A stretch of DNA of 64,000 bases. It comes from Micromonospora chaiyaphumensis. Lineage in GTDB: Bacteria; Actinomycetota; Actinomycetes; Mycobacteriales; Micromonosporaceae. The position numbers and the translations under genes are program-made. The DNA is taken from positions 1 through 64,000 of the forward strand of contig NZ_FMCS01000005.1 in the NCBI RefSeq assembly GCF_900091435.1, in the 5' to 3' direction. The notes below the pieces were generated by a model. It saw only the letters and a program-made list of their open reading frames with translations. It searched no databases and was not told the DNA's origin. Below are positions 41,201 to 61,118 of this stretch, piece by piece (the stretch's first letter is position 1; the number at the start of each line of letters is the position of its first letter).

Positions 41201-43484
41201 GGCGGCCCAGGTAGCGCAGCCGCCGGTCGGCGTCGAAACGGACCCGGTCGCCGGTCCGGTAGACCCGCGCGGTGCCACCGGACGGCAAGGCCACCTCGAC
41301 GAAGCGCCGGGCCGTGGCCTCCGGGTTGCCCAGGTAGCCGTCGGCGAGCTGCGGGCCGCTGACGCAGAGTTCGCCGGCCACGCCCGGCGGCACCGGCCGC
41401 AGGCGCTCGTCCAGCACCCACACCCGGACGCCCGGCAGCGGCCGGCCGATGGTCGGGGCGTCCCCGGCGCGGATCTCCGCGGCGCTGGTGTCCACGGTGC
41501 ACTCGGTCGGGCCGTACAGGTTGACGGCGCGGACGCCGGGCAGCGCCGCGACCGTGTCCCACAGGTCCGGCGGGACCGCCTCGCCGCCGAGCAGCAGCAG
41601 GCCGGGCAGCCGGGTGTCCCCGGCACCGGCGAGCAGGATGCGCAGCTGGGCGGGGGTCAGGTCGAGCACGTCGACGCCGTTGCCGGCCAGCGCGGCGGCG
41701 AGCGCCGCGCCGTCCCGGCGGACCTCCTCGGGCACCAGGTAGAGGCTGCGGCCGTGGCCGAGCTGCACGAGCTGCTTGACCGAGGCGTCGAAGGTGAGCG
41801 GGGCGTTCACGGCCACCCGCAGGCCGGGGTGGCTGCCCGCGTACACGGTCTGCTCCAGCGCGCCGGCGAGGTGCGCCGCGGCGCCGTGCGACACCTGGAC
41901 CGGGCGGGGCGTGCCGGTGGAACCCGACGTGAAGATCACGTACGCCGGGTCGGCCGGGACCGGCGCCGCGGCGGGCGGCGGACCGCCGGCCGCGACCAGG
42001 TCCGCGACGCTCACGGTCGCCGGGCCGCCGGCGCCGACGACGACCTCCGCGCCGACCGCCCGGAGCTGGGCGGCCAGGCGCGGCGCCGGGGCGTCCGGGT
42101 CCAGCGGCACGAACACGGCCCCGGCCCGCAGCACGCCGAGGAACGCCACGACGGTCTCCCGGGACCGGGCGGCCAGCACCCCGACCGGAGCGCCGGCGAG
42201 GCCACGCGCCGCGAGGGCACCGGCCACCCGGCCGGCCCGTTCGCGCAGCTCGTCGGCGGTGTACGCGCCGTCCGCGGCGACCACCGCCGGGGCATCCGCG
42301 GCCATCCCGGCGAGGCCCGCGTCCAGCAGGTCCACGAGGGTACGCGCGGCCACCTCGGAGGGGGTTCCGGCCGCGTCGGACAGCCAGCTGGCCTCCCCGT
42401 CGCCGAGGACGGCGAGCGGGGCGCCGTCGGTGAGCGCGGCGGGCAGGCTGCGCAGGACGGCCAGCAGCGCGTCGAGCAGCCACTGCCCGCCGATCACCCG
42501 CAGGACGACCCGGTCGCCCTCGGCCAGCGCGGTGAGCTGCGGGCCGGCAGCCGGTGCCGGGTCGGCGACCGTCACCTGCACGGCGCCGAGACCGGCCACC
42601 GTGGACGCGTCCACGGCGGGCAGCAGCGCGAAACCGGCGACCGCCCCGGACTGCTCGTCCACCGGGTCGACCAGGTGGAACGTCTCCTCGGCGGCGACCT
42701 CGGCGGCGCGGACGCCGGCCAGCAGGTCGGCGGGGGCGGCCGGCAACGGCAGGGCCAGCCGCAGCGGGCCGTAGCCGCCCAGCGGGCCCACCACCCCGGC
42801 GGTGCCGTCGGCCTGCCGGCCGTCGCTCCACCGGGCCAGCACCAGGTCCGCCTCGTCGGCCCCGTCCGGCGCCTCGGCCCGGCGGGACACGGCGACAGCC
42901 CAGGCGGCGAGCAGCACGGTGCCCGGCTCGACGCCCGCGGCCCGGGCCGCGTCGGCGAGCGCGGCGGCCGGCACCGTCGCGGTGACGATCGCGCTCGGGT
43001 CGTCCCCGGCCGGCGTGACCAGCCGGGCGGCCGGCGCGGCCGGCGCGCGGGCCGGCGCCTGCTCCCGCTCCTCCAGCTGCCACTCGGCGACGTCGAGGAA
43101 CTGCAACGCCTCCGGGTCCTCCGGCAGCACCTCGCCGGCGTACGCCTGAGCCAGGTCGGCCAGGACCAGCCGGAGGCTCGCCGGGTCGGCGATCAGCGGG
43201 GTGGCGGCCAGCTCCAGCGCGTCGTCGGTCAGCGTGACCGACAGGTCGCCCTGGGCCCCGACCGTCACGGCGCGGGCGTCGTCCACGTCCTGCAGCGGCA
43301 CCCGCAGCCCGGGGTGGTGCACCAGGGTCAGCCGCAGCGCCTCGTGCCGGGCCACCACCGTGTCGACGGCGGCCTGCAACCGGGCCCGGTCCAGCGGCCG
43401 GCCGAGCCGGACCCGCGCCCGGACCAGGTCCTGCTTCCCGGCCCAGGCCAGGCGCTGGATCGGCGACAGACGGTATCCGTTCAC
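38205..43484 (-). CDS. NRPS: degenerate C, A(Glu-like) interrupted by FkbM methyltransferase, T, C, T
   Basis: A 1,759-residue synthetase. Residues 1-360 are a shrunken condensation-like domain lacking HHxxxDG. The A domain runs from about 385 (YVIFTSGSTGTP; NLYGPTECTVDTS), and its hand-read code DAKDLGLVDK is one change from the glutamate code DAKDLGVVDK. Between A8 (RLDDQVKIHGFRVEPGEV) and A9 (LPAHLLP) sits an FkbM-type SAM methyltransferase, about 820-1090 (VLDVGANIGMFSLF, IDLLKIDVQRAEADVL). Next are a T domain (LGGDSIRSIQ, about 1189), a C domain with EYHGILDGWS in place of the canonical HHxxxDG, and a final T (AAGGDSLRAL, about 1720) with no A domain of its own and no TE. The start GTG overlaps the oxygenase stop by 4 nt. 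Confidence 0.93.
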   Translation of the reverse strand: MNGYRLSPIQRLAWAGKQDLVRARVRLGRPLDRARLQAAVDTVVARHEALRLTLVHHPGLRVPLQDVDDARAVTVGAQGDLSVTLTDDALELAATPLIADPASLRLVLADLAQAYAGEVLPEDPEALQFLDVAEWQLEEREQAPARAPAAPAARLVTPAGDDPSAIVTATVPAAALADAARAAGVEPGTVLLAAWAVAVSRRAEAPDGADEADLVLARWSDGRQADGTAGVVGPLGGYGPLRLALPLPAAPADLLAGVRAAEVAAEETFHLVDPVDEQSGAVAGFALLPAVDASTVAGLGAVQVTVADPAPAAGPQLTALAEGDRVVLRVIGGQWLLDALLAVLRSLPAALTDGAPLAVLGDGEASWLSDAAGTPSEVAARTLVDLLDAGLAGMAADAPAVVAADGAYTADELRERAGRVAGALAARGLAGAPVGVLAARSRETVVAFLGVLRAGAVFVPLDPDAPAPRLAAQLRAVGAEVVVGAGGPATVSVADLVAAGGPPPAAAPVPADPAYVIFTSGSTGTPRPVQVSHGAAAHLAGALEQTVYAGSHPGLRVAVNAPLTFDASVKQLVQLGHGRSLYLVPEEVRRDGAALAAALAGNGVDVLDLTPAQLRILLAGAGDTRLPGLLLLGGEAVPPDLWDTVAALPGVRAVNLYGPTECTVDTSAAEIRAGDAPTIGRPLPGVRVWVLDERLRPVPPGVAGELCVSGPQLADGYLGNPEATARRFVEVALPSGGTARVYRTGDRVRFDADRRLRYLGRLDDQVKIHGFRVEPGEVAAVLRGHPEVADAAVVARDDDGYGDRLVAYVRPGERPAPAVDVDRIAGVNPHETRYLYDEIFVQQVYLRDGIVLRPGATVLDVGANIGMFSLFVHAVCPDATIHAFEPVPSVVDVLRRNVAEFGVPATVHGFGLARAAGEVSFTYYPGYSMMSGHAAYADPDAEVAVIKRYLTNERDAGADERDVLLGRVDELLAERFAGRQLTVPVRPLSAVLDELAPERIDLLKIDVQRAEADVLAGLEDRHWPLIAQVAMEVHDAPGADTAGRLAELVALFEARGFTVVTRQDDLLAGTDRHTLHAVRPGYADDPRPAVVTAAAPAGGPLSERLSGWLADRLPAHLLPAAVVLLDELPLTRNGKLDRAALPAPRLGRPGAGVSPANRAEEILVEAWREVLGVADFGVTDSFFALGGDSIRSIQMQVAAQKRGLSFQLNDIFTHQTIRELVEHGQLNLDGVETGPGVAETGRFALVSAADRERLPGGLADAYPMTALQQGMVYHGELTGDPAMYHNVTAHRVAAPLDAAALRRALAGLVAAHPVLRTGFALGAYSEPLQLVHADVPVEVPVTDLAGADPQARRARIDDLVAEERARPFDWARPPLLRLHAVREDDDAFTLIVAEYHGILDGWSLHRFLTDLLAAYDGERAGRARPADPGLPFREYVAAERRALADPATRRFWLDGAGSARPLLLGGAQPRTTTTQRVPLRAGTTEAVGAAARAAGVPVKSWLFAAHLRLIGELAGRDDVVSGLVVGGRPEGEGSDATLGLFLNTLPVRVALGTRSPAELAAEVWRAERELMGHHRFPLAEIVRAGGAGPRFDHFFNWTHFPHGPADGGSRIVDSRGITVDVAFSLAVDAELDAGTGRLALTVQYDHRHVPAERVDALADGFRRLLAADPAAPLPPVAPAGPAAGDARGEWATRVAGAWQEVLGAAPRDPGTDFLAAGGDSLRALRLVTVLRQRHGSDLTLPEFTALGSYGALVDRVARS

Positions 43485-44497
43485 ACCACACTCCGATTGA
43501 CGTAGAGGTCGGACATGGCGACCAGGATCTGCCGGTCGCCGCTGAAGGGTTCCCGGCCGTGGGTGGCCAGGAAGTTGTCCACCACCAGCACGTCGCCGCG
43601 CTGCCAGGGCACCGAGACGGCGTGCTGCCGGTACAGCTCACGGATGCCGGTGACCACCTCGTCGGGGATCGGCTCGCCGTCGCCGTAGTAGGCGTTGCGC
43701 GGCAGGCCGTCCGGGCCGTACTCGCGCAGCAGCGCGCCGGACACCTCGGCCGGCATGTTGGAGACGTGGAACAGGTGGGCGTGGTTGAACCAGACCGTCT
43801 CCCCGGTCCGCGGGTGCGTGGCGACCGCCTGCCGCCGGGCCCGGGTCCGCAGCCCGTCCCCGCCCAGCCAGGTGAACTCGGTCGCCGAGGCGGCGCAGTA
43901 CGCCTCCACCTCGGCCCGGTCGGTCGTCTGGAAGGCCTCCTGCCAGGGCAGGTCCAGGTGCGGGCCGTAGTTGCGCACGTAGCTGACGCCGGCGCGGAGG
44001 AACCGCTCCCGCACGTCGGCCGGGATCAGCGGGGTGATGACCCGCTCGCTGGCCAGCGGGGTGGCCCCGCCGCTGCCGGTGGCCGGCTGCGCGCACCAGA
44101 AGTAGAGGAGGGTGGGCCAGTTGTGCGAGTACGACATCTCGTGGTGCAGCGGGATCCACTGCTCGGCGTTGAACTCGGTGGAGGTGAACACCCGGTCGGC
44201 GACCTCGTGCCGGGGGGCGGCCCGCTCCAGGTAGCCGAGCAGGTCCGGGCTGACCGCGCGGGCGGCCAGGCTGAAGTCGTCGGGGGTGCGCACCTCGAAG
44301 CCGCGGAAGAACACCGCGCCGTGGCGGTCCAGGTCGGCCAGCAGCTCGTCGTGGCGGCCGGCGAGCCAGGCCGCCAGGTCGAGGTCGGGCACGGCGGCCT
44401 CGACGAGCAGCACGAACTCCTCGTCCACGAGCACCCGCCGGGTCACCGGTGCGGTGACCGTGCCGGTGGCGCGCCGCCGCGGCCCCGGCCCGCTCAC
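43481..44497 (-). CDS. TauD/SyrP-like Fe(II)/2-oxoglutarate oxygenase, copy 1
   Basis: A 338-residue non-haem iron oxygenase. A probable facial triad is formed by His/Glu in IPLHHEMSYSHNWP (HxE) and the distal His in NFLATHGREPFSGDRQIL, with Arg as the 2-oxoglutarate anchor in the same segment. The overall layout (GAVFFRGFEV, WFNHAHLFHVSNMP) resembles SyrP-type amino-acid beta-hydroxylases that act on carrier-bound substrates. The start GTG at 44497 has GGGAGG 7 nt upstream and overlaps the stop of the other oxygenase (GTGA); its own stop overlaps the following NRPS start. It presumably hydroxylates a T-bound residue such as Asp/Asn or Glu (inference). Confidence 0.9.
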   Translation of the reverse strand: MSGPGPRRRATGTVTAPVTRRVLVDEEFVLLVEAAVPDLDLAAWLAGRHDELLADLDRHGAVFFRGFEVRTPDDFSLAARAVSPDLLGYLERAAPRHEVADRVFTSTEFNAEQWIPLHHEMSYSHNWPTLLYFWCAQPATGSGGATPLASERVITPLIPADVRERFLRAGVSYVRNYGPHLDLPWQEAFQTTDRAEVEAYCAASATEFTWLGGDGLRTRARRQAVATHPRTGETVWFNHAHLFHVSNMPAEVSGALLREYGPDGLPRNAYYGDGEPIPDEVVTGIRELYRQHAVSVPWQRGDVLVVDNFLATHGREPFSGDRQILVAMSDLYVNRSVV

Positions 44498-45567
44498 GCC
44501 CGGCCTCCCGCCGGGGTCGCCACGGCGCCCGCATCCAGAGCCCCGGTCAGCTCGGGCGCGGCGACCGGGTCGGACATCGCGGTGAGGATCCGCCGGGGCG
44601 AGGTGAACGGCTCCCGGGCGTGCGCGGCCAGCATGTTCTCCACCAGCAGCACGTCGCCGCGCTGCCAGGCGAAGGAGCGGGTCTCCGCGGCGTACGCGGC
44701 CCGCAGCTCGGCCAGCACGTCGTCGGGGATGGGCGTGCCGTCCCCGTACGCGGTCTGGTAGGGCAGGTCCTCGTCGCTCAGGGCGGCGCGCAGGCCGGCG
44801 CTGACGTCGTCGGGCAGCGAGGTGACGTGGAAGAACAGCGCGTGGTTGAACCAGGTCCGCTCCCCGGTGACGGGGTGGCGGCGCACCGCGGGACGGACCT
44901 GCCGGGTGCGCAGCTGCCGGTTGCCCACCCACTCCACGTCGATGAGCGCCCGGGCGCAGTACGCCTCGACCTCCTCGCGCCGCTCGGTCTGGAACGCGGT
45001 CTGCCAGGAGAGGCTGATGCCGGGCAGGTAGTTGCGCCGGTAGAGCACGCCGCGCCGCTCGAACTCGGCGACCGTCCCGGGGCGGAGCCGGGCCAGCACC
45101 CGGCGGCTGTCCGCGAGGGGGGTACGCCCGCCGGCGCCCGGCTCGACCTCGCAGTGGAAGACGATCCGCAGCGGCCAGTTCACCGTGTACGACTGCTCGT
45201 TGTGCAGCACGATCGGCTGGTCGGCCGGGTGCTCGGTGGAGGTGTACACCCCCTCGGTGATCTGGCTGCGCGGTGAGGAGCGTTCGCCGTAGGAGAGCAC
45301 GTCGTCGGAGAGGGCGGCCATCACGGTGCGGAAGTCGTCGGCGCCGGCCACGGCGAAGCCGCGGAACAGCACCGCCCCGGCCCGCCGGGCCAGCTCGTCG
45401 ACCTCGTCGCGGTGGCCGGCCAGCCAGCCGGGGAGGTCGACGTCGGGCACGTTGGCCCGCACCAGCGCCGGCAGCGGCCCGCCGGGCCAGTCGGGGCGCA
45501 CGTCCACCAGGTTCCGCTCGCGGCCGCGCCGGGGGATGGTCCGCGCGACCCGGTTCTGCTCAGTCAT
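44494..45567 (-). CDS. TauD/SyrP-like Fe(II)/2-oxoglutarate oxygenase, copy 2
   Basis: A 357-residue paralogue of the adjacent oxygenase. It has the same architecture: VLFRGFAVAGADDF, iron-binding IVLHNEQSYTVNWP (HxE), WFNHALFFHVTSLP, and distal His/Arg in NMLAAHAREPFTSPRRIL. The two copies are clearly related along their whole length but divergent, so this is an old tandem duplication rather than a recent one. It begins 3 nt after the stop of the A-T-C NRPS. Two hydroxylases imply two different hydroxylated positions or substrates in the product. SyrP-like activity is inferred from family resemblance. Confidence 0.9.
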   Translation of the reverse strand: MTEQNRVARTIPRRGRERNLVDVRPDWPGGPLPALVRANVPDVDLPGWLAGHRDEVDELARRAGAVLFRGFAVAGADDFRTVMAALSDDVLSYGERSSPRSQITEGVYTSTEHPADQPIVLHNEQSYTVNWPLRIVFHCEVEPGAGGRTPLADSRRVLARLRPGTVAEFERRGVLYRRNYLPGISLSWQTAFQTERREEVEAYCARALIDVEWVGNRQLRTRQVRPAVRRHPVTGERTWFNHALFFHVTSLPDDVSAGLRAALSDEDLPYQTAYGDGTPIPDDVLAELRAAYAAETRSFAWQRGDVLLVENMLAAHAREPFTSPRRILTAMSDPVAAPELTGALDAGAVATPAGGRA

Positions 45568-45570
45568 CTC

Positions 45571-48500
45571 TCACTCTCCAGCGGTGTCGGCGCAGTCGGC
45601 GAGACTGCGCCGGGGGTCGGCGGCGGCGGTACCCAGCACCGCGCCGAAGCGGCGGTGCCACGCGACCACGCCGTCGTGGTCGAACAGGTCGGTGCGGTAG
45701 GTCCAGAGCGCCTCGAGCCCGTCCCGCCGCTCGTCGAGCCAGAGGGTCAGGTCGAGCCGGGCGGTGTCCGGGGTGAGTTCCACACCGGTGAACTCGATTC
45801 CGGCCGCGCCCCGGTGCCGGGCCGGCGGGGCGTTCTGCACCCCGAAGGCCACCTGGACGAGGGGGTTGCGCCGGGGCCGGCGGGTGGGCCGCAGCCGCTC
45901 CACCAGCAGGTCGAAGGGCACGTCCTGGTGGGCGGCGGCGAACAGGGTGACCCGGCGGGCCTCGGCGAGGAGGTCGGCGAAGCTGCGCCCGGGGGCCGGC
46001 CGCAGCCGCAGCGGCAGGGTGTTGACGTGGCAGCCGACGCTCTGCTCGGCAGCGAGGCTGGTCCGTCCCGCGAAGGCGACACCGACGAGCAGGTCGCGCC
46101 GGCCGGTGGCGGCGCCGAGCAGGGTGGCGAACGCGGCCAGCCCGACCATGTGCAGGCTGGCGCGCCCGGCCCGGGCCAGGTCGCGGGCCGCTCCGGCGGT
46201 GGCGGCGTCCAGGGTGGTCCGCAGCGCGGCACCGGGCGGCGGGCCGTCCTGTGCGTCCAGGGTGGTCCGTGGCGCGGCGCCGGGTGGCGAGCCGTCGCCG
46301 GGTCGGCCGGCGGGCGGCGTGTTCCGCGTCGGCGCGGCGGCCGGAGCGGTCCAACCCTGCCGCGGTGGGGTGGTGGGGGGGTCGAGCAGGTCGGGGGCGC
46401 CGCGCACCTCGTCCAGCACCTCGGCGACCGCCCGCCGACCGGCCGGCCCGGCCAGCCAGTCGCGCTGGGCAACGGCGAACGCCGCCGGGCCGACCGCCGG
46501 CCGGTCGGGCGCCGCCGCCGGGTCGCCCGCGCGGTCGTACGCCTCGGCGAGGTCCCGCACGAGCACGCCGAACGACCAGTCGTCGCAGACGATGTGGTGC
46601 ACGACCAGCAGCAGCGCCAGCGCCCGGCCGGTGCCGTCCGGCACGAGGTGGGCGCGGAGCAGCGGGCCGGCGGCCAGGTCCATGGGCGCCCGGGTGGCCC
46701 CGGCGGCGAGCCGGCGCAGCCGCGCGTCGAGCGGCGCGCCCGGATCGGCGGGCGCGAGGACCGGCGCGGTGCCGGCGGCGGGGCGGACGTGCTGCACCGG
46801 CCCGTCCGGGCCGGACGGGAAGACCGTGCGCAGCGCCGGGTGCCGGTCCACCACCCGGCGCAGCGCCCGGGCCAGCCGGTCCGGGTCCAGCGGCGTGGCG
46901 AACCGGACCGCGAAGGCCAGCAGGTAGGAGGTGTCGGCCGGGTCGAGCCGGTGGAGGAACCAGAGCCGGGTCTGCGCGGCGGAGAGCGGGGCGGGACCGG
47001 CCGGCGCGGGGCCGGCCGGCTCGGCGACCGGCTCCGCGCCCTCGGCCAGCCCGTCGAGGTGGGCGGCCAGCGCGGCGACGGTCGGGTGGGCGAAGAGGTC
47101 GCCCGGCCGGACCGGCCGGCCGGTGGCGGCGGCCAGCCGGGTGGCGCAGCGGACCGCGAGCAGGGAGTCCCCGCCGAGGGCGAGGAAGTCGCTGTCGGCG
47201 CCGGTCACCGGCACCCCGAGCAGCTCCCGCCAGACCGTGGCCACCGTGCCGGCCGTGCCGTCGAGCGCGGCGGATGTGCCGTCGCCGAGGGCCGGTGCGG
47301 GCAGGGCCGAGCGGTCCACCTTGCCGTTGGGCAGGGTGGGCAGCCGGTCCAGCCACACCACGGCCGCGGGGACCAGCGGGGCGGGCAGCGCCTCGGCCAG
47401 CCGGGCGCGGACGTCGTCGCGCCGCTCGCCCACCAGGTAGCCGACCAGCAGCGGGTCTCCGCTCGGTCCGGGCCGCACGGCGGCGGTCGCCTCGCGTACG
47501 CCGGGCAGGGCGGCGAGGCGGGCCGCCACCTCGCCCAGCTCGATCCGGTAGCCCCGCAGCTTCACCTGGTCGTCGAGCCGGCCCAGGTACGCGAGCTGCC
47601 CGTCCGGCCGCAGCCGGACCCGGTCTCCGGTGCGGTACATCCGCTCGCCGGGCCGGAACGGGTCCGGCAGGAACCGGGCGTCGGTCTCCTCCGGCCGGTC
47701 GAGATAGCCCCGGGCCAGGCCCGCCCCGGCCAGGTGCAGCTCGCCCGGCTCGCCGGGCGGGACCGGCTGGCCGGCCGGGTCGAGGACGTAGGCGCGGGTC
47801 CGCGGCAGCGGCCGGCCGATCGGCGTCCGGCGGCACCTCGGCCCAGGTCGAGTAGGTGGTGTCCTCCGACGGGCCGTAGAGGTTGCAGAGCCGGCGGACG
47901 TGCGGGCGGGACCAGACGCGGGCGGCCAGTGCGGCGGTCAGCGGCTCGCCGGCCAGGCAGACGGTGCGCACGCTCGCCGGCAGGGCCTCCGCGGTGAGCA
48001 GTTCGCCCATGGCCGAGGGCACGGTGTTGACCAGCGTGACCGGCAGCCGCTCGGCGCCGGGGGCCGCGAGCGCCAGCACGTCGTCGACCAGCAGCACCCG
48101 GCCGCCCCAGCAGAGCGGGCCGAAGATCTCGAACACCGACAGGTCGAAGCAGACCGAGGTGGCGGCGAGCAGGCCGCCCAGTTCGGCGTCGTCGAAGGTC
48201 TGCCGGACCCAGTGCATGAGCACTGAGGCCGAGCGGTGCTCGATGGCCACACCCTTGGGCCGTCCGGTGGATCCCGAGGTGTAGATGACGTACGCCAGGT
48301 CCGCCGGTGTGACGGGCGCCGTCGGGTCGGTCGGGTCCTCGACCGGGTCGAGCCGGTCGACGGGGACGGCCGTCTCGGGGAACCGGCCGGCGAGGTCGGT
48401 GCGGGTCAGCACCAGCCGCACGCCGGAGTCGGCGGTCATGAACGCCACCCGGGCCGGCGGGTACGCCGGGTCCAGCGGCACGTAGGCGGCGCCGGCCTTG

Positions 48501-48793
48501 AGCACGGCGAGCAGGGCGACCACCAGCTCGGGGGTCCGCGGCAGGCAGACGCCCACCCGGTCCTCCCGGGTCACCCCGCGCCGCAGCAGCACCCGGGCCA
48601 GGCGGTTCGCCGCCTCGTCCAGCTCCTGGTAGGACAGTGCGTGGTCGCCGTGCCGGACCGCCTCGGCCTCCGGGGTGCGGGCGGCCTGCGCGGCCACCAT
48701 CCGGTGCAGGCAGTCCACGGTGGCCGGACCGCCGGTCGCGCGGCGGCCGGTGCTCCGGCGGGTCGGGCCGGCGGGCCGGGTGGGGGCGCTCAC
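45571..48793 (-). CDS. NRPS A(Ala-like)-T-C, frameshifted in this sequence
   Basis: About 1,070 residues if the frame is restored. The frame from the GTG at 48793 (AAGGGG site; overlaps the megasynthase stop by 4 nt) encodes an A domain through [14 protein letters not shown] and [19 protein letters not shown]. At about 47820 the coding signal jumps to another minus-strand frame, which continues [15 protein letters not shown], then [28 protein letters not shown], a T domain ([10 protein letters not shown]) and a C domain with HHIVCDDWS, to the stop at 45571. The hand-read code DLFNCALTYK fits alanine-type codes. As an A-T-C protein it is a natural loading module. Either the gene is broken, or there is a base-call error in a GC-rich stretch; intact domains on both sides favour the latter or a very recent mutation. 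Confidence 0.88.
47812..47836 (-). other. frameshift site inside the NRPS A domain
   Basis: Between A-domain cores A5 and A6 the codons GTG-CCG-CCG-GAC are followed by one extra base relative to CCG-ATC-GGC-CGG-CCG (PIGRP). The net shift is +1 (or -2). The surrounding sequence is a GC-rich run of CGGCCGGCCG, prone to sequencing error. Confidence 0.8.
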
Positions 48794-51700
48794 CGGCGGG
48801 CCCCTTCGCTGCGCAGCAGCGCGAGCCGCCGATCGGCCTCCTCCTGGAGCCGGTCCTTGTCGGCCAGGATGATCGTGCCGGGGTCGTTGTCGGGCAGTTC
48901 GTCCTCCACGTTCCGGATCGGCCGGTAGGCGATGCCCGCGGCGGCCAGGGCCAGCGCGCACAGCCCGGCCACGATCGCCGCGAGGGCCATGCCGCGTCCG
49001 GGGCCGGTGCCGACGACGCCGGCCAGCACGCCGCCGGGAGCGGCCAGCGGGGCGAAGACGTGCTCGGCGAGCGGGCCGGCGCTGAGGAAGCCGGCCGGCA
49101 CCATGAGCCAGGACAGCATCTGCCCCATGGACAGCACCCGGCCCTGGAGTTCGAGCCCCACCTTGGCCTGCACGATGGCGAGCCAGTGGGTGTTCACGAG
49201 CGCCGTGGCCAGGCCCATGCCGAACAGGCCGAGCGCCGGGAACAGCGGGCTGGGACGCAGGCCGACGGTGAGCAGCGAGACGCCCAGCAGCACGACGCCG
49301 GCCAGGATCCCGGTGGTACGCCGGGCCGTGCCGCCCCACACGCCCATGAGCACCGAGCCGACCACCATGCCCACGCCGCTGGCGGCGAGCACCCGGCCGA
49401 GCACCGCCGGGTCGCCGAAGGACAGCGTCAGCGGGGTGACCAGGACCTCGACCATGGCGAAGAAGTAGTTCAGCGACGCGACCAGCACCACGAGGGCGAC
49501 CAGGCCGTGCCGGCGGACGATGAACCGCCAGCCGCCGAGGACCTCCCGCCGGAACGGCTCCTCCCGCTTGACGAACAGGGTGTCCGGGAAGCGGACCGAC
49601 AGGGTGACGAGCACCGCCACGGCGAAGGTGAGCAGGTCGATGACGACGATCCCGCGCAGCCCGACGGCGATCACCAGCGCGCCACCGACCAGTGGCGCCA
49701 GCACGGTGCTGGTGGCCGTGCCGAGCGAGACGATGCCGTTGGCCCGCCCGTAGTACCGCTTCGGCACCAGTTGCGTGACGGCCGCCAGGTAGGCGGGTTG
49801 CTGGAACGCGGTGGCCACCGCCGTGACGGTGATCGCCGTGAACACCTGCCAGAGCTGGAGCTGACCGAGCCAGAGCAGCAGCGCGAGGCTCACCGTGCCG
49901 GTGGCGGCCAGGCAGTCCGCGAGGATCATGATGCGTCTGCGGTCCCACCGGTCGGCGAGCGCGCCGGCGACGGGGGACAGGACCACGGCGGGCAGCAGCG
50001 CCAGCACGGTGGCCGTGGCGAACAGCGACACCGACCCGGTGCGCTGGTAGACCCACAGGCTCATGCCGAAACCGGTGAGCCCGCTGCCGATGAGCGAGAC
50101 GAGCTGACCGATCGCGATGAGGTAGAACACCGCCAGGCTCGGCATGGCGCGGCGCGGGGCCGCCGGCTGCTCGCGCGGTGGCGCGGGCGCGGGTTCGGGC
50201 CCGGGCGCGGCCTCCGGCGTCACGGGCGGCGCGGCGCAGTGCGCCAGGATGATGTCCGCCAGTTCGGCCGGCTGGTGCTTGGCGAAGTAGTGGCCGGCGC
50301 CTTCGATGACCTCCAGCGACACCCGGTCGGCGAAGAACTCCCACTCCAGGTACCGCTCCTGGTACAACTCCGTGGCACGGTCGCCGCTACCCACGACGCT
50401 GACCAGCGGCGCCGACAGCTTCCGGGGCAGGCCCCCGGCGTAGGCGTCGGTGTAGTAGTCCTCGCCCTTCGCCGAGTCGGCCAGGACCACGCGCATCACG
50501 AAGTCCTTCTCGTTCTCGTCGAAGACCTCGGTGAAGAAGCCCATGGCGCGCAGCGACTCCAGGGTGCGCCGCTTCGACGTCCAGCGCTCCACCGGGAACC
50601 ACCGCCGCAGCCAGCCGAACACCCGGCCGGGCAGCCGCGGGGCGGGGAAGTGGGCCCCGATGACCACGCCGGTCACCTCGACGCCGGCCACCTCCAGCCG
50701 GCGGGCCAGCTCGACCGCCTCGGCGCCGCCCACACAGTGCCCGTACACCGCCACCGGGCCGGTGATGTTCTCGACCACCTCGGCCACGCAGCCGTCGACC
50801 AGCTCGTCCAGGCCGAGCAGGGGCTCGTCCGGTCGGTTCACGTCGTGGCCGGGGCGCTCCAGGGCGTGGAGCGAGACACCCGCCGGCAACGCGTCGGCCA
50901 GGGGCTGGAACGTGACGGCGCTGCCGCCACCGAACGGTACGCAGACCAGGGTGAGCGTCGTCGGCGTGCCCGGCCGAGCCGGGGTCAGCTCGTGCAGCAG
51001 GCGCCCGACGGAGCCCCCGGTCGCCGCCAGGTGCTCGGTCAGGCCCCGGATCGTCGGGTGGCGGAACAGGTCGAGGACACTGATCGCCGGGTCGCTGCCG
51101 GCCAGGGCCTTGATCGCCTTGAACGAGTCGCCGCCGAGGTCGAAGAAGTCGTCGTCGATGCCGACGCTGCCGTACCCGAGGACCGCCGCCCACCGTTCGG
51201 CCAGGGCCCTGCGCAGCGGGGTGTCCGGCGGGGCGGCGCCGACGGCGGCCCCACCGCGGCGGGGCGCGGGCAGGGCCGACCGGTCGACCTTGCGGTTGGC
51301 GTTGAGCGGCATCCGGTCGAGCACCACGAACGCCGACGGCACCATGTAGTCCGGCAGGTAGGTGCGGGCGAAGGCCCGCCACGGCGCTGCGTCGACATCG
51401 AAGTCCGCGGTGACCTCCGGCGGCTCCGGGCCGGCGTCGCCGCCGGGGCCGGTCAGGGTCAGGTACGCCACGATGGACTTCTCGTCGCCGTCCTCGCGGA
51501 CCACCACGGCGGCGTCGCGGACCGACTCGTGGCGGCGCAGCACCGCCTCGATCTCGCCCAGTTCGATGCGGAACCCGCGCACCTTGACCTGCGAGTCGGT
51601 GCGGCCGACGAACTCGATGCGGCCGTCGGCCAGCCGCCGGCCGAGGTCGCCCGTGCGGTAGAGCCGTCCGCCGCCGTCCGGGTCCGGCACGAAACGCTGG

Positions 51701-54700
51701 GCGGTCAGCGCCGCGTCGCCGTGGTAGTCGCGGGCCAGCCCGGCGCCGCCCAGGTACAGCTCACCCAGCACGCCCACCGGGGTGGGGGCGAGCCGCGCGT
51801 CGAGCACGTGCACGCGCATGTTGCCGATCGGGCGGCCGATGGTGAGCCGCGTGAAGCCCGGCTCGATCCGCTCCATGGTGGACCAGACGGCCGCCTCGGT
51901 CGGGCCGTAGAGGTTCCACAGCGCGTCCACCCGTTCGGCCAGTTGCCGGGCCAGCGGCGCCGACACCGCCTCGCCGCCGCACACCGCGGTCAGGCCGGGC
52001 GTCCCGGCCCAGCCGGACTCGATGAGCAGCCGCCAGGTCGCCGGGGTGCCCTGGGCCAGGGTGACCCCCTCGGTGCGCAGCAGGCCGGCCAGCCGGGGCG
52101 CGTCGTAGGCGACGTCGCGGCCCACCAGCAGCATCCGGGCGCCGACCACCAGGGGCAGGAACAGCTCCGGCACCGACATGTCGAAGGCGAAGCTCGCCAT
52201 CGCGAGCATGGTGCCGTCGCCGGTCAGGCCGGGCCGCTCGCGCATGGTCGCCAGGGTGTTCACCACGGCGCCGTGGCTCACCCGAACCCCCTTGGGGCGG
52301 CCCGTCGAGCCGGACGTGTAGATGACGTACGCGAGGTCGTCCGGACCGGCCGCCACCTCGGGGTCGGTCGCCGGCTCGGCGTCCAGCGCCGCGCCTCCGC
52401 ACACCACCTCGCCCGCGAAACCGGTGAACCGGTCCGCCAGGCCCGCCTCGGTGACCAGCACCCGGGCGTCGCTGTGCGCCAGCACGTACCGCTGCCGCTC
52501 GACCGGGTAGTCGGGGTCCACCGGCACGTACGCGCCGCCGGCCTTGAGCACGCCGAGCAGGGTGACCGGCAGTTCCTCCGAGCGGTGCAGGCAGACCGCC
52601 ACCGTGACGTCCGGCCCGACGCCCGCCCGGCGGAGCCGGTGCGCGAGCCGGTTGGCACGGGCGTTCAGCTCGGCGTAGCTGAGCGTGGTCGCACCGAAGG
52701 CCACGGCGGGGCGGTCGGGCCGCGTCGCGACCTGGTGGGCGATCAGGTCCACCAGGGTGGGCCGGCCCGGCACCGGCCAGCCCGGCTCGGTGGCGGTGTC
52801 GTTCCACCCGGCGAACCGGTCCCGCTCGGCGGGGGTGAGCACGGCCAGGTCCGCGAGCCGGACGTCGGGGTCGGCGACGGCCGCGGCCAGCAGCGTCTCC
52901 AGGTGCCCCATCATCCGCTCGGCGGTCCCGGCGTCGTACAGCGCGGTGTTGTACTCCAGCCGGAACCGCAGCCCCTCGTCCACCTCGTACGCGTAGAGGG
53001 CCAGGTCCTGCTGCGCGATGCCCGGCTCGACGGCGAACGGGACCATCCGCAGCCCGGTCGTGCCCAGCTCCCGCTGCTCGGGCACGTTGAGCAGGTTGAA
53101 CATCACCTGGAACAGCGGGTTCCGGCTGAGGTCGCGGGGCGCGTCGACGAGGTCCACGAGCCGCTCGAACGGCACCTCCTGGTGGTCGTACGCCCCCAGC
53201 GCCGTGCGCCGCACCTCGCCGAGCAGTTCGGCGAAGGTCCAGTCGCCGTCGAGCACGGTGCGCAGCGGCAGCATGTTGACGAAGAAGCCGACCATCGGTT
53301 CGAGCTCGGCGCGGACCCGCCCGGCGACCGGCGTGCCGACGCAGATGTCGCGCTGCCCGGTGTAGCGCCAGAGCAGGGCCTTCAGCGCGGCCAGCACGGT
53401 CATGGCCAGGGTGGCGCCCCGGGCCTGGCTGAACCGGCGCAGCCCGTCGGCGGCCCCCGCCGGCAGGAGCCGGGTGCTGACCGCGCCGTCGAAGGTCTGC
53501 ACGGGTGGGCGGGGCCGGTCGGTGGGCACCTCCAGCACGCTCGCCACCCCGTCGAGCTGCCCGCGCCACCAGCGCAGGTCGTCGTTGTCCGGGTCGGCCA
53601 GCCGGCCGCGCTGCCAGCGCGCGTAGTCGCCGTACTGCACGGCCAGGTCGGGCAGCGGCGCGGGGCGGCCCTCCCGGGCGGCGTCGTAGAGGGTCGCGAG
53701 TTCGCCGGCGATGATACCGAGCGACCACCCGTCGGAGACGTTGTGGTGCATGGTCAGCGAGAGCACGTGCCGGTCGTCGGCGACGCGGAGCAGCACGGCC
53801 CGGAACAGCGGCCCGGCGGCCAGGTCGAAGGGGCGCCGGACGTCGGCGGCCAGCGCCGCGTGCACCCAGCCGGGCAGCGCGTCGGCGACCGCCGGCTCCA
53901 CGATGCTCCGCGGGGCCGGCGCGTCGTCCGCGTCGTCGGGGGCGGTCAGCACCGGCAGGTCGACCGGTCCGGCCGGCCGGACCTCCTGGACCGGGTCGCC
54001 GTCGGGGCCGGGCGGGAACACGGTACGCAGCGACTCGTGCCGCCGGACCAGCTCGGCGAGGGCCCCGCGCAGCGCGCCGACGTCGAGGTCCCCGTCCAGC
54101 AGCAGCGCGGTGCTTACCGTGTACGCGTTCTGCGCGTACGCCTGGTCGAGGAACCACAGGCGGTGCTGGCCGGAGGAGAGCGGCGCCGGACCGGCGCCGG
54201 GATCGGCGCGGGGGATGGCCGGTTCCACGGGCGCGGCGGGGGCCGGCTCGGCCACGGCGGGCGCGGCGGGCGCGCCGACGGTCGCCGGCAGCGCCGCCGC
54301 GATCCCGGCGACGGTCGGCTGGGCGAAGACCGTCTCCAGCGGCAGCGCCACGCCGAGCCGGGCCCGCAGCCGCACCACGACCTGGGTGGCGAGCAGGGAG
54401 TGCCCGCCCAGCTCGAAGAAGTTGTCGTGTGCCCCGATCGGCCGGATGCCGAGCAGTTCGGCCCAGATCTCCGCCACGCGTTCCTGCGCCGGCGTGCCGG
54501 GGGCGACGTAGGCGGTGCTCAGGGCCGGCCGGTTGCCGGCGTCGACGGGCTCGGGGGCGGCCGGCGCGTCCGGTGCTTCGGGCCCCGGGAGGGTCGCCGC
54601 GCCGGAGCGCGGGGCCGCGTCCACCCAGTACCGCCGCCGTTCGAACGGGTAGCCGGGCAGGGCCAGCCGGCGGCGCCCGCCGCCGTGGAACCGGGCCCAG

Positions 54701-57700
54701 TCGACCGGCGCGCCGGCCAGCCACAGCCGGCCGACCGCGTCGAGCAGCGTGGTGAGGTCGTCGGCGTCGCCGCGCGGGTGCCGCATGGCCGCCACGGCCT
54801 GGCCCGGTCGCAGGCCGGCCAGCCGGGCCAGGCCCCCGAGGGCGTGCCCGGGGCCCAGCTCCGCGAGGACCACGTCCTGCTCGGCGAGGAGCGCGGCCGA
54901 CTCGGCGAACCGCACCGGCTCGCGCATGTGCCGCACCCAGTACGCCGGGTCGGTGACCTGCCCCGGGGTGACCGGGCCGCCGGTGAGGTTGCTCAGGTAG
55001 GGGCGCTCCGGCTCGTGGTAGGTGACCCGGCGGGCGTGCTCCGCGAACTCGTCGAGCACCGGGTCGAGCAGGGCCGAGTGGTAGCCGCGGGCGACCCGCA
55101 GGGGCCGGCAGTCGACCCCGTCGGCGATGAGCCGCTCCCGCAGCGCCCCGACCGCCTCCGGGTCACCGGAGACCACGCACAGCTCCGGGGCGTTGACGGC
55201 GGCCAGCGCGATCCGGTCGTCCAGCAGGACGGCCACCGCGGCCTCGGGCCGGCTCACGGCGAGCATCGCCCCGGCCGGCGTCCGCTCGACCAGCGCGCCC
55301 CGGGCGCAGACCAGGCGCAGCGCGTCCTCCAGCGAGAAGACGCCGGCCAGGCAGGCCGCCACGTACTCGCCGAGGCTGTGCCCCACCATGAGGTCCGGGG
55401 TCACGCCCCGGGCGAGCAGCGACCGGGCGAGCGCGTACCCGGTGACGAAGAGCGCGGGCTGCACGAGCCGGGGCTGCGCGAGCAGCCGCTCGGCCCCGGT
55501 GTGGCCGTCCGGTGCCGGGCAGAGCACCGTGCGCAGGTCCAGCCCCAGGTCGTCGCGGACCAGGTCGGCGCACTCGTCCACCACGGCCCGGTAGGTCGGC
55601 TCGTCGCGGTAGAGGCCGGCGCCCATCGCCACGTGCTGGGCGCCGTGCCCGGGGAAGGCGAACACGAGCGGCCGCCGGCCGCCGGGGTGCACGCCGGTGA
55701 ACTGCCGCTGCGGCGTGTCGAGGGCGGCCAGCGCGTCGGCGCGGTCCGCCGCGACGAGGAACCGCCGGTGGGGCATGGACTGGCGGCGGCCCAGGTTGGC
55801 CGCGACGTCGGCGAGCTCCACCTCGGGCCGCCCGGCGAGCCAGTCGCGGAGCCGGTGGGCCTGCCGGTCCAGCGCCTCACCGGTACGCGCCGACACGACC
55901 AGCAGGTGCGGCCCCGCGACCGGCTCGACCGGCGGCGCCGGTGTGGCCGGCGGCTCCTCCAGCACCACGTGCGCGTTGGTGCCGCCCATGCCGAACGAGC
56001 TGACCCCGGCCCGGCGCGGGCCGTCGACGGTCCACGGACGGGCGCTGTCGGTGAGGTAGAACGGGCTGCCCGCGAAGTCGATCGCCGGGTTGGGCTCGCT
56101 CACGTTGATCGCCGGCGGCAGCGTACGGCTCCACAGGGCCATGACCGTCTTGATGAGACCGGCCACCCCGGCGGCGGCGTCGGTGTGCCCGATGTTGGCC
56201 TTGACCGAGCCGAGGGCGCAGAAGCCGCGGTCGTCCGTGCCGCGCCGGAACGCCTCGGTCAGCGCGGCCACCTCGATGGGGTCGCCGAGGCTGGTGCCCG
56301 TCCCGTGTGCCTCGACGTAGCTCACCGAGCGGGGGTCCACGCCGGCCGTGGCCAGCGCGCTGCTGACCACCTCGACCTGGCCCGCGACGCCGGGCGCCGT
56401 GTAGCCGGTGCGGCGCGCCCCGTCGTTGTTGATCGCGGAACCGCGGATCACCGCGTAGACCGTGTCGCCGTCGGCGACCGCGTCCTCCAGCCGCTTCAGC
56501 GCGACGATGCCGACCCCGCTGGACTCGATGCTGCCGCGCGCGTCCGCGCTGAACGGGCGGCAGTGCCCGTCGGGGGAGTAGATCCCGCCGTCGTGGTAGA
56601 GGTAGCCGCGGCGCTGGGCCGGGAAGATGCTGACACCGCCGGCCAGGACCAGGTCGGACTCGCCGGTCAGCAGGCTCTGCCGGCCGAGGTGCACAGCCAC
56701 CAGCGACGTCGAGCAGGCCGTGGCGACGGTGACCGCCGGGCCGGTGAGGTCGAGCTTGTAGGCGACCCGGCTGAGCAGGAAGTCCTTGTCGTTGCTGATC
56801 GAGAGCTGGTGCTCGCCGATGGTGCCGGCCAGCTCGGGGTGGCCGCTCAGGTGGTCGAGCAGGTAGCTGCTGCGTCCCGATCCGGCGAAGAGGCCGACCC
56901 GGCCGGGACGGCGGGACGGGTCGTGGCCGGCGTGCTCCAGCGCGTGCCAGGCGCACTCCAGCAGCAGCCGGTGCTGCGGGTCGAGGGTCTGCGCCTCCCG
57001 GGGCGTGATCCCGAAGAAGGCCGCGTCGAACTCGTCGATGCCCGGCAGCCAGGTGCCGGCCCGGACGTACGCCGGGTCGCCCAGCCGGTCGGGGTCCGCC
57101 CCGGCGGCGAGCATCTCCTCGACGCTGAACTCCCGGACCGACTCGACGCCGGTGCGGATGTTGTGCCAGTACTCGTCGACGGTGCGCGCGCCGGGGAAGC
57201 GGCAGGCCATGCCGACGACGGCGATGAGGCCGCCCGGCCGGCCGGTGTCCTCGTGGGCGCCGACGCGGGCGGCCGGGGCCGGCGCTGCGGCCGGCGCGGG
57301 CGCCCCGGTGGTGGCGGTGGTCAGGAACGTGGCCAGGGACTCGACCGTGGGGTGCCGGAACAGGTCGGTGACCGTGACGACGTCGCCGAGCCGGTCGCGC
57401 AGCCGTTCGAGGACGGCGAGCAGCCGCATCGAGTGGCCGCCGAGGTCGAAGAAGGTGTCCCGCACCCCGACCCGGTCGACGCCGAGCACGTCGCGCCACA
57501 CGTCCATGACCAGCCGCTCCAGGCGGACCCGGGCCGCGTCCCACCCGTCGGGCGCGGGTGCCGGCGGTGCGGGGGCGACCGGCCGGGGCTCGGGTGCGGA
57601 CCGCTGCCGGGGCACGTCCGCCGCGCGTCCGGGAGCGGGCAGCGCTGCGGTGTCCACCTTGCCGTTGCCGGTCAGCGGCAGCGCGTCGAGCCGGACGAAC

Positions 57701-60597
57701 GCGGCGGGCACCAGATAGGACGGCAGGTCGGCGGCGAGCGCCGCGCGCAGGTCCGCGACGTCGGTCCCGGTCCCGCCCGCGAGGTACGCGACGAGCTGCG
57801 GGTCGTCCGGATCGTCCCGGCGCAGCTGCACCGTCACGTCCAGCTCCGGCCGGCAGCGGCGGACGGCCGCCTCGATCTCGCCGCACTCCACGCGGTAGCC
57901 GCGCAGCTTGACCTGGCGGTCGGTGCGGCCGAGGTATTCGAGGTGCCCGTCCGGACGCAGGCGGACCAGGTCGCCGGTGCGGTAGAGCCGGGCGCCGGGC
58001 ACCGCCGAGAACGGGTCCGGGACGAACCGCTCGGCCGTCAACCGCGGCTGGTTCAGGTAGCCGCGCGCCACGCCGGCCCCGCCGACGTACAGCTCGCCGA
58101 CCACGCCCGCCGGGACCGGGTTCCGCCACGCGTCGAGCACGTACAGCCGGGTGTTGGCGATCGGCCGTCCGACGGGGACGGAGCCGTCCTCGGGCGAGGC
58201 GGGATCGACCTCGTACGCGGCGCAGCCCACCACGGTCTCCGTCGGCCCGTACTCGTTGACCAGCGCGGTGCCGGGCGCGTGGGCCCGCCACGGCGCCACC
58301 TGGTCGGCGCGCAGGTTCTCGCCGCCGATCACGAAACACCGGGTGCGGCCGGCCAGCTCGGCGGGGCGGAGCTGGTGGCGGACCAGGTCGAGCTGCGCCG
58401 GGGTGATCTTGACGAGCCCGAACGGGGTCCGCTGCTCGCGCAGCGCCTCGCCCAGTGCCTCGGGGCCGAGGTGCTCGCCGATCATCCGCACGGTCGCCCC
58501 GCTGACCAGCGGAACCAGCAGGCTCGTCACGGTCAGGTCGAACCCGATCGACGAGTGCAGCGGGACGACGTCACCGGGCCGCAGCCGGTAGGCCTGGGCG
58601 GCCCAGCGCACGTAGTTGCACACGCCGCGGTGGGTGACCATGACACCCTTGGGGCGGCCGGTGGAGCCGGAGGTGTGGATGACGTACGCCAGGTCGTCCG
58701 CCGACGGCTGCGGCCGGCGGCGGGCGCGCCGCCGCGGCCCGCCGTTCCGGGCCGGTTCGACGGCTGGGACCGGCGTGTCGGGACCCGGCACCAGAAGCGC
58801 CGTGCCGTCGGGCACCAGGTGCGCCAGCTCGGCGCAGGTCAGCACGACCGGCGCGGCGGCGTCCGCGATCAGGTACCGCAGCCGGGCCGGCGGGTTGGCC
58901 GGATCCATGGGTACGTAGGCGGCGCCGGTCCGCAGCACGGCGAGGACCGCCACGGCGAACGGGACCGCGCGGGGCAGCAGCACCCCCACCAGGCTGCCGA
59001 TGCCGACGCCCCGCCCGCGCAGCGTCTCCGCCAGCGCCTCGGCCCGGGTGTGCAGCTCCTGGTAGCTCAGCGCGGCGGAGCCGTCGGTCACCGCCACGGC
59101 GGCCGGGGTCTCCCGCGCCTGTCGCTCGATCAGCAGGTGGACCAGGTCGTCGGGCTCGGCGGGCGTGGCCGTGCGGTTCCACTCGCCCACGAGCTGCCGG
59201 TGTTCGTCGGGGGTGAGCATCGCGGCCGCGCCGACCGGCGCGCCCGGGTCGGCCAGCAGCGAGCGCAGCAGCGTCCGGAAGTGCCCGGCGAGGCGGGCCA
59301 TGGCGTCGGCGTCGAACAGGTCGGTGCGGTATTCCAGCGCCGTGCGCAGGCCGTCGGCGTTCTCGCGGACCGCGACCGTGAGGTCGAACTTGGCGGTGTC
59401 GATCGGCACCTCGACCGGGGTGACCTGGAGGTCGTCCAGGCGCGGGGGCGTGGCCTCGCGGCCGTAGACGAACATCACCTGGAACAGCGGGGTGTAGCCG
59501 GGCCGGCGGGGTGGGCGCAGCGCCTCCAGCACCGTCCCGAAGGGAAGCTCCTCCCGGCTCAGGCCCTCCAGCGCGGCGGTGCGCACCCGCCCGAGCAGCG
59601 TCTCGAACGACGGGTCGTCGTCCAGGCGGGCCCGGACGGCGACGGTGTTCAGCAGCAGCCCGACGAGCCGCTGCGTCTCGGGCCGCCGCCGGTTGGCCAC
59701 CGGCGTGCCCACCACGATGTCGCGCTGCCCCGTCCACCGCGCCAGCAGCACGTGCAGCGTGGCCAGCAGGACCATGTACGGGGAGACCCGCGCCCGGTGG
59801 CACAGCGCCGCGAGCGCCTCGGCGTCGACGTCGAGCGGCACCGACAGGGTGGCTCCCGCGCTGGACGGAACGGTGGGACGCGGCGCCCGGGTGGGCAGCT
59901 CCAGCACGGCCGGCGCGTCCGCGAACTCGGTGCGCCAGTGGTCGAGCTGGGCGGCCGCCTCCGGACCGTCGAGCCACTCCCGCTGCCGGACCGCGTGGTC
60001 GCGGCAGTCGGCCTCGACGGGGTCGAGGTGCGCCGGCCGGCCGGCGCGGTGCGCGGCGTAGAGCCGTTCCCACTCGTCGTGCAGGAGCCCGAGCGACCAC
60101 TCGTCGACCGCGACGTGGTGGAAGGTCAGCAGGAGGACGTGCTCCTCCGGGGCGCACCGCAGCAGGAGGGCGCGGACCACGGGGCCGCGCTCGAGGTCCA
60201 CGGGGGTGTGCGCCTCGGCGTGCATCCGGGCCTGGAGCTCCTGGTCGCGCTGCCAGGTGGGCAGCCCGCTCAGGTCGTGCACGCGCAGGAGCCCCGGGCG
60301 GGCCTCGTGGACCACCTGGACCAGGTGCCCCGCGTCGTCGCCGGGCGCGCCGTCGCCCGCCGGGGCGAGGGTGGTACGCAGGGCGGCGTGCCGGGCGACC
60401 AGGTCGTCGAAGGTGGCCGACAGGGCCGCCACGTCCAGCGGGCCGTGCAGCCGGTACGCCAGCGGCACCAGGTAGGTGGTCGTCCCCGGGTCGAGTCGGC
60501 TCAGCTGCCACATCTGGTGTTGTGCCGCGGAGGCCGGAGCAGGAGTCGCGTCGGCCAGAAAATTGCCGGCGTCGACCCTTGTGATCAGTGTTTTCAT
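48790..60597 (-). CDS. hybrid NRPS/PKS megasynthase C-A-T-KS-AT-T-C-A-T-TE fused to an MFS exporter
   Basis: About 3,935 residues from the ATG at 60597 ([11 protein letters not shown]); an upstream ATG at 60642 is possible, and neither has a strong ribosome site. Residues below count from 60642. C1 is 30-470 (HHVAVDEW), A1 490-1000 (code DLTKVGEVGK, Asn/Asp type), T1 LGGHSMRLL near 1071. KS is 1135-1560 with Cys1310 in TACSTSL plus EAHGTGT and NIGHT. AT is about 1640-2005 (PGHGAQ, GHSLGEY Ser1756, RGYH in place of HAFH; malonyl likely). There is no KR, DH or ER. T2 is near 2082, C2 2120-2560 (HHNVSDGWS), A2 2580-3090 (code DMPQVGLVWK, uncertain, Gly-like), T3 [10 protein letters not shown] near 3170. 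The TE is 3220-3470, with Cys3303 in YGHCVGG and His in GAGHYF. A Pro/Ala linker then leads to a 12-TM MFS domain (3500-3920; motif [12 protein letters not shown]). It is the first gene of the operon. Confidence 0.95.
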
Positions 60598-61118
60598 AAG
60601 ACAGGTGCAGATCCCTCGATAGGAATTTCCTGTCCACATCATCGGCAGCGGTGATCTTCGGCGGGATCCCCGGATCGGACGGCCGTCGATGCGTTCGGCC
60701 GACGGGCTCGCACGTTCGTCTATTTTTTCGGCGGCGGTAACCTAGGCGACTGCACGGGCCCGTCGACCTCGCCTCCGAATGGTCGCCACACCGCCCGTAC
60801 CAGGGGATTTGACCTCGTCGGGCAGGCCCGGAGGGCGGTGTCGCCGGCCCTGTCACGGCTCGCTGGCACCACTGTTGACAATCCGACTCCGGGGCCGTGG
60901 GTGTCCCGTCGGTGCGTTTTGGCCGGATGCACACGGCCATATCCTCCCTATGCGTCTGTGCCACTCCTATGTCGACTTGACGCAGGCATTTCAGGAGACG
61001 GGCTCCCCATGAGCATTTCCGGCAGTTCGGTGACGAACTGGGACCGTGGCGGGCGAGGCGTGCGGTGCCGTCGTGTGGTCAAGGGATGGCGGTCCTCGGT
61101 GCGGGGGAGGATGTGACC
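60598..61118. promoter_or_regulatory. divergent control region of the NRPS/PKS operon
   Basis: About 520 bp between the megasynthase start and the divergent epimerase gene; no believable gene on either strand. It includes an A/T tract at 60718-60728 (tctattttttc), unusual for this genome, and TTGACA at 60875-60880 on the plus strand without a convincing -10 partner. No clear operator palindrome was identified, and no pathway regulator gene lies in or next to the cluster. Confidence 0.5.

Follow-up and report, generated by a model that had tools for sequence, protein, structure and literature searches.

A hybrid NRPS/PKS encoded in the window (the whole 64,000-nucleotide stretch of Micromonospora chaiyaphumensis DNA analysed here; 74% GC) ends in a thioesterase (TE) that carries a cysteine in place of the nucleophilic serine and is fused to a predicted MFS exporter. 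Based on the organization of its last modules, the chances are about even that this domain is a Dieckmann TE of the Cys type, embedded in a module and coupled to an exporter of its own. A broader reading, more tentative and with chances somewhat short of even, is that the module-embedded Cys-TE yields a tetramic acid by Dieckmann closure, that it derives from the same stock as the Cys-TEs that form beta-lactones and beta-lactams, that the last module determines which ring forms (a tetramate where Gly follows a beta-keto unit, possibly beta-lactones where Ser or Thr is loaded in sister proteins), and that the TE and MFS domains act as a covalent release-and-export unit in the Actinomycetota, Chloroflexota, and Bacillota.

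The 3,950 aa protein is encoded on the minus strand (48790..60642) by a single uninterrupted ORF (GC3 0.97) and, based on Pfam matches, has the domain order C-A-T-KS-AT-T-C-A-T-TE-MFS. The first A domain (57640..59145, minus strand, as are all domains of this protein) has the Asn-type code DLTKVGEVG and lies upstream of a PKS module, KS-AT-T, without a KR (54289..57225), in which the KS and AT active-site motifs are present and the AT-to-T linker is ~75 aa. A terminal C domain (52819..54186; Pfam and a check of its motif, HHNVSDG), a terminal A domain with the code DMPQVGLVW (51289..52740), the TE (50236..50958; Pfam Thioesterase), and the MFS domain (49102..50118; PF07690, also PF05977 MFS_3) complete the protein. 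As an earlier note on this DNA had claimed, the TE elbow holds a Cys where the nucleophilic Ser is expected: minus strand positions 50725-50745 read TAC GGG CAC TGT GTG GGC GGC, or YGHCVGG (GHCVG core, 50728-50742), with the TGT codon for Cys75 of the TE at exactly 50734..50736. The exporter domain does not figure in that note. The His that the same note had put forward in GAGHYF is TE residue 223 (50290..50292) and the triad base; it is invariant across 46 aligned sequences, as are Cys75 and the triad acid, Asp193 (50380..50382). With positions I and II defined as in PMC11298585 and PMC6668435, Asp193 (Cys+118) lies after a later beta strand and aligns with Asp1254 of ObiF1 at position II, and position I, at Ala102-His103 (50650..50655), has no Asp, Ala102 aligning with Gly1173 of ObiF1.

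The proposed kinship with the Cys-TEs of obafluorin and sulfazecin biosynthesis is borne out, as ObiF1 and SulM are the nearest solved TEs by sequence, catalytic layout, and predicted fold. A PDB profile search with the TE returned ObiF1 first (E = 5.7e-57) and the SulM TE third (1.1e-24), and the AF2 model (pLDDT 89) compared best with ObiF1 (Z 29.8; rmsd 2.2 over 228 residues) and SulM (Z 27.8), followed by type II TEs (RedJ, 24.6; others, such as RifR, below). Among NRPS TEs, ObiF1 and SulM have been singled out for the layout of a Cys with a position-II Asp (PMC11298585). The ObiF1 TE (obafluorin beta-lactone synthase; PDB 6n8e) shares ~36% identity, the Cys in YGHC, the position-II Asp, and a position I without Asp, but what it releases is a beta-hydroxy-alpha-amino acid, and the next domain is an MbtH domain, whereas here a Gly-like residue follows a beta-keto unit and an MFS exporter follows the TE. 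The SulM TE (sulfazecin beta-lactam; PDB 8w2c/8w2d) shares the Cys nucleophile and the position-II Asp, but at ~21% identity, and neither its Gln-Cys-Asn motif (His-Cys-Val here) nor its terminal diaminopropionate is present. In a tree of 74 TEs (quick IQ-TREE search; SH-aLRT support only) both ObiF1 and SulM sit on long branches and their placement is unsure.

Searches with the whole protein against 160 same-genus and 394 same-class genomes, which are not biased towards Cys, recovered GHC in every examined relative of at least ~36% identity, nearly all of which have a post-TE extension of ~450-550 aa, the size of an MFS domain. A full TE match of at least 85% identity occurred in 26 of the 160 same-genus genomes. 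Only three loci, all distant (~32-34% identity; L078, L079, and L081), have Ser versions (GHS, in GHSSG), and these lack the MFS domain and any C-terminal extension, while one distant relative without an MFS domain still carries the Cys; the Ser relatives bear on the timing of the Ser/Cys exchange and of the exporter fusion. Judged from these sequences, the Cys is a fixed trait of the family and not a product of chance. A scan of named genomes with the pattern GP..YGHC matched 437 loci, a count that is no measure of Cys conservation since the pattern itself contains the Cys, such that the conservation claim is drawn from the whole-protein searches. Among the best 80 of the 437 loci, 79 had an MFS domain, the lone exception ending at a contig edge, and the TE-MFS loci belonged to the Actinomycetota, Chloroflexota (Herpetosiphon, Anaerolineae), and Bacillota (Paenibacillus, Fontibacillus, Brevibacillus). 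A prior description of an NRPS TE-MFS fusion was not found in a literature search of limited journal coverage, so that both the fusion and the cluster may already have been described elsewhere. Two variants of the architecture were observed. Five Cys-TE-MFS proteins (L098, L168, L170, L172, and L179) have a last module apparently without an A domain (C-T-TE-MFS). Additionally, one short assembly line is common to Herpetosiphon (Chloroflexota) and Paenibacillus/Fontibacillus (Bacillota; L143, L146, L148, L150-L153, L155, L156, and L158), consisting of A(DASTVAAVC-type)-T, ~1.6 kb unmatched by the queries, and C-A(DLTKIAHVS-type)-T-TE-MFS, and looks like a case of inter-phylum horizontal transfer.

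The residue carried to the TE is predicted to be Gly. The code DMPQVGLVW is identical in all orthologs with a readable terminal A domain, and the nearest A domains, found at the same place in sister proteins, have the codes DILQFGLVW (64% identity) and DILQLGMIW or DILQLGLIW (54-57%). These codes are the recognised glycine pattern, of which DMPQVGLVW would be a variant, a point that counts against the Gly call. Over the full range, identity to canonical Gly A domains is ~53-64%, compared to no more than 50% for A domains of other positions or clades. Upstream, both the KS and the C domain of this protein retain intact active-site motifs, and relatives carry AT motifs of the malonyl type (HAFH). 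Pfam found no KR in the three proteins examined, and 20 of 21 loci have an AT-to-T linker of 51-82 aa, the remaining one having a partial AT match; a ketoreductase may act in trans. As a KS-AT-T without a KR precedes a predicted Gly module, the chain reaching Cys75 should end in -CO-CH2-CO-NH-CH2-CO-S-. The module order expected ahead of a tetramate-forming terminal TE, KS-AT-T without a KR followed by C-A-T-TE, is thus present, and the beta-keto unit beside the predicted Gly points to ring closure by C-C bond formation (Dieckmann).

In the 74-TE tree, the TEs that follow KS-AT-T-C-A(Gly)-T group as a single clade of 24 loci (SH-aLRT 96) from Micromonospora, Nonomuraea, Streptosporangium, and Amycolatopsis, the terminal A domains of which are all Gly-like. 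The trait changes once on the tree, compared to a mean of 9.5 changes for shuffled labels, and none of 500 shuffles was as low. Elsewhere in the family, the last A-domain codes are Ser-like (DVWHISLID), Thr-like (DFWNVGMVH), Asp-like (DFTKIGHVG), and others. Columns specific to the clade include His103, directly after position I, which is found in 100% of its members and is rare elsewhere (mostly Ser, Thr, Gly, or Met), and Leu159, which is replaced by Arg or Lys in the rest of the family. Such columns are consistent with, but no proof of, a changed chemistry. Two of the Cys-TE-MFS proteins with the Thr-type last code DFWNVGMVH (L104 in G138 and L054 in G102) represent a possible threonine beta-lactone system.

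The NRPS/PKS gene heads a conserved cluster of six genes on the minus strand. It is followed by a second NRPS (45571..48790), A-T-C, with the Ala-type code DLFNCALTY, which is syntenic and in one frame in relatives and is frameshifted in this assembly near 47820, inside the A domain, either by a sequencing error or by a recent mutation. The two oxygenases that had been noticed nearby are both of the Fe/2-oxoglutarate type (TauD family); the first (44494..45567) has an H-N-E metal motif and the clavaminate-synthase-like 1y0z as its nearest PDB entry, and the second (43481..44458) has an H-H-E motif in its translation and a weak match to clavaminate synthase. A third NRPS (38205..43484) has the order C-like domain, A (DAKDLGLVD) with an FkbM methyltransferase inserted in it, T, C, and T, the insertion suggesting O-methylation of a loaded residue, and a PLP enzyme of Cys/Met metabolism (37036..38208; domain match and synteny) is the last gene. 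The order of all six genes is kept at orthologous Micromonospora loci, and the flanking genes vary between strains. Membership in the detoxin/rimosamide family was considered and rejected: those NRPS-PKS hybrids likewise combine a TauD oxygenase and a TE, but their PKS module is KR-T-TE with no amino acid module after it, whereas here there is no KR and a C-A-T lies between the PKS module and the TE (PMC9503745).

N-(beta-ketoacyl)aminoacyl thioesters are established precursors of 3-acyl tetramic acids via Dieckmann closure. The closing enzyme is either a TE domain or a TE-like Cys-Asp-His Dieckmann cyclase, and N-acetoacetyl-glycyl-SNAC is converted by one of these cyclases (PMC4979870; PMC10956176). 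The Cys89Ser variant of one such cyclase, BpdE, failed to restore production (PMC10956176), and ring closure by ObiF1 needs its Cys, with the Cys-to-Ser variant mainly hydrolysing the substrate (PMC6668435). From these two outcomes and the known tetramate precursor, we infer that the chain is transferred to Cys75 as a thioester, attacked by its own enolate, and released as a tetramate. The mature chain, peptidyl-Asn-CO-CH2-CO-NH-CH2-CO-S-T, would pass to Cys75 by an energy-neutral transthioesterification, and the acyl-enzyme, remaining a thioester with Cys rather than Ser, would stay open to an internal nucleophile and be shielded from water. His223 and Asp193, perhaps together with His103, would deprotonate the acidic carbon that is flanked by two carbonyls, and this carbon would then attack the thioester in a Dieckmann condensation to give a 3-acyl tetramic acid with no substituent at C5. 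The attached MFS domain would export the tetramate, and the TauD oxygenases would act on upstream residues and not on the terminal one. The conserved six-gene cluster contains no other release enzyme.

The free-standing Dieckmann cyclases (TrdC, NcmC, and BpdE) have the same alpha/beta hydrolase fold, Cys-Asp-His residues, and beta-ketoacyl-aminoacyl thioester substrates (here predicted), but are separate proteins, described as having a four-helix bundle (PMC10956176), and place the Asp at Cys+27, which by residue spacing (Cys88-Asp115; PMC4979870) is position I. Cys+27 is Ala102 in this TE, so the TrdC/NcmC-type position-I Asp is not found; that NcmC is not among the 50 structural matches listed for the AF2 model carries no weight either way. 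Module-embedded tetramate-forming TEs of bacterial PKS-NRPSs also follow a PKS step and an amino acid module as the terminal domain, but they are described as Ser-type (Ser-Asp-His), which counts against a Dieckmann role for the present domain (PMC10956176). Further, some relatives have this Cys-TE-MFS module without a neighbouring beta-keto unit, so Dieckmann chemistry does not follow from the Cys by itself. We know of no fused exporter on a module-embedded tetramate-forming TE. Two candidate parallels were set aside: the ring of malonomycin is assigned to a C-terminal condensation-like domain and not to a TE, and the nucleophile of the legonindolizidine TEII is Ser77 and not a Cys (PMC8748450).

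The shift of the ObiF1 Cys-to-Ser variant towards hydrolysis also bears on the alternative that the TE only hydrolyses its chain, giving a linear N-(beta-ketoacyl)glycine acid, with the Cys a lineage feature devoid of special chemistry. Hydrolysis is common among TEs, and the predicted fold is also near the type II editing TEs RedJ and RifR, but given the fate of that variant the retention of Cys in every close relative recovered by the unbiased searches argues for cyclisation, and a purely hydrolytic role appears unlikely. Macrocyclisation would have an upstream hydroxyl or amine, made by a TauD oxygenase or provided by an Asn or Glu side chain, attack the Gly thioester to form a macrolactone or macrolactam. 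The conservation of both oxygenases in the cluster and the frequency of macrocyclising TEs speak for such a release, but the pockets of ObiF1 and SulM are small and constrained and their substrates small (PMC11298585), and no upstream nucleophile stands out in the sequence, making this alternative rather improbable. The suggestion that a residue hydroxylated by the two oxygenases closes the ring is not supported, as the terminal residue is predicted to be Gly and TauD hydroxylation would be confined to upstream residues (Asn-, Ala-, and Glu-like codes), allowing macrolactones at most. The closure of a strained four-membered ring (beta-lactone or beta-lactam) on the terminal residue, as first read from this DNA, is highly unlikely despite the formation of such rings by ObiF1 and SulM with the same Cys and position-II Asp, because the terminal A domain nests with canonical Gly A domains, Gly has no beta-OH or beta-N nucleophile, and the SulM motif is absent; of that reading, the Cys type and the relationship to ObiF1 and SulM are supported and the strained closure is not.

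The strained-ring idea is better suited to other branches of the family, including one in the same genome, where a second Cys-TE-MFS NRPS (G000:C2:273091-273789; L085:11600-17089, minus strand) has the order C-A-T-TE-MFS and a Ser-specific last module (DVWHISLID), making it, from its code, a better candidate for a serine beta-lactone than the 3,950 aa protein. PKS genes with KR and DH lie near this paralog on the same strand, and the Ser-terminal Cys-TE-MFS group to which it belongs is common in the genus Micromonospora.

The near-universal fusion to an exporter suggests that the release of a reactive product and its export may be physically coupled. For genome mining, GHCxG-TE-MFS proteins sorted by their last A-domain code provide a handle on new tetramates and possible Ser/Thr beta-lactones. 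Both Cys-TEs of the clan with chemistry found in the literature, ObiF1 and SulM, make strained, reactive rings, and the question is whether a Cys with a position-II Asp signifies a strained ring or, more broadly, attack by an internal nucleophile and not by water. As clades within this family differ in their terminal residue and in the PKS step ahead of it, the meaning of the pair can be tested clade by clade.
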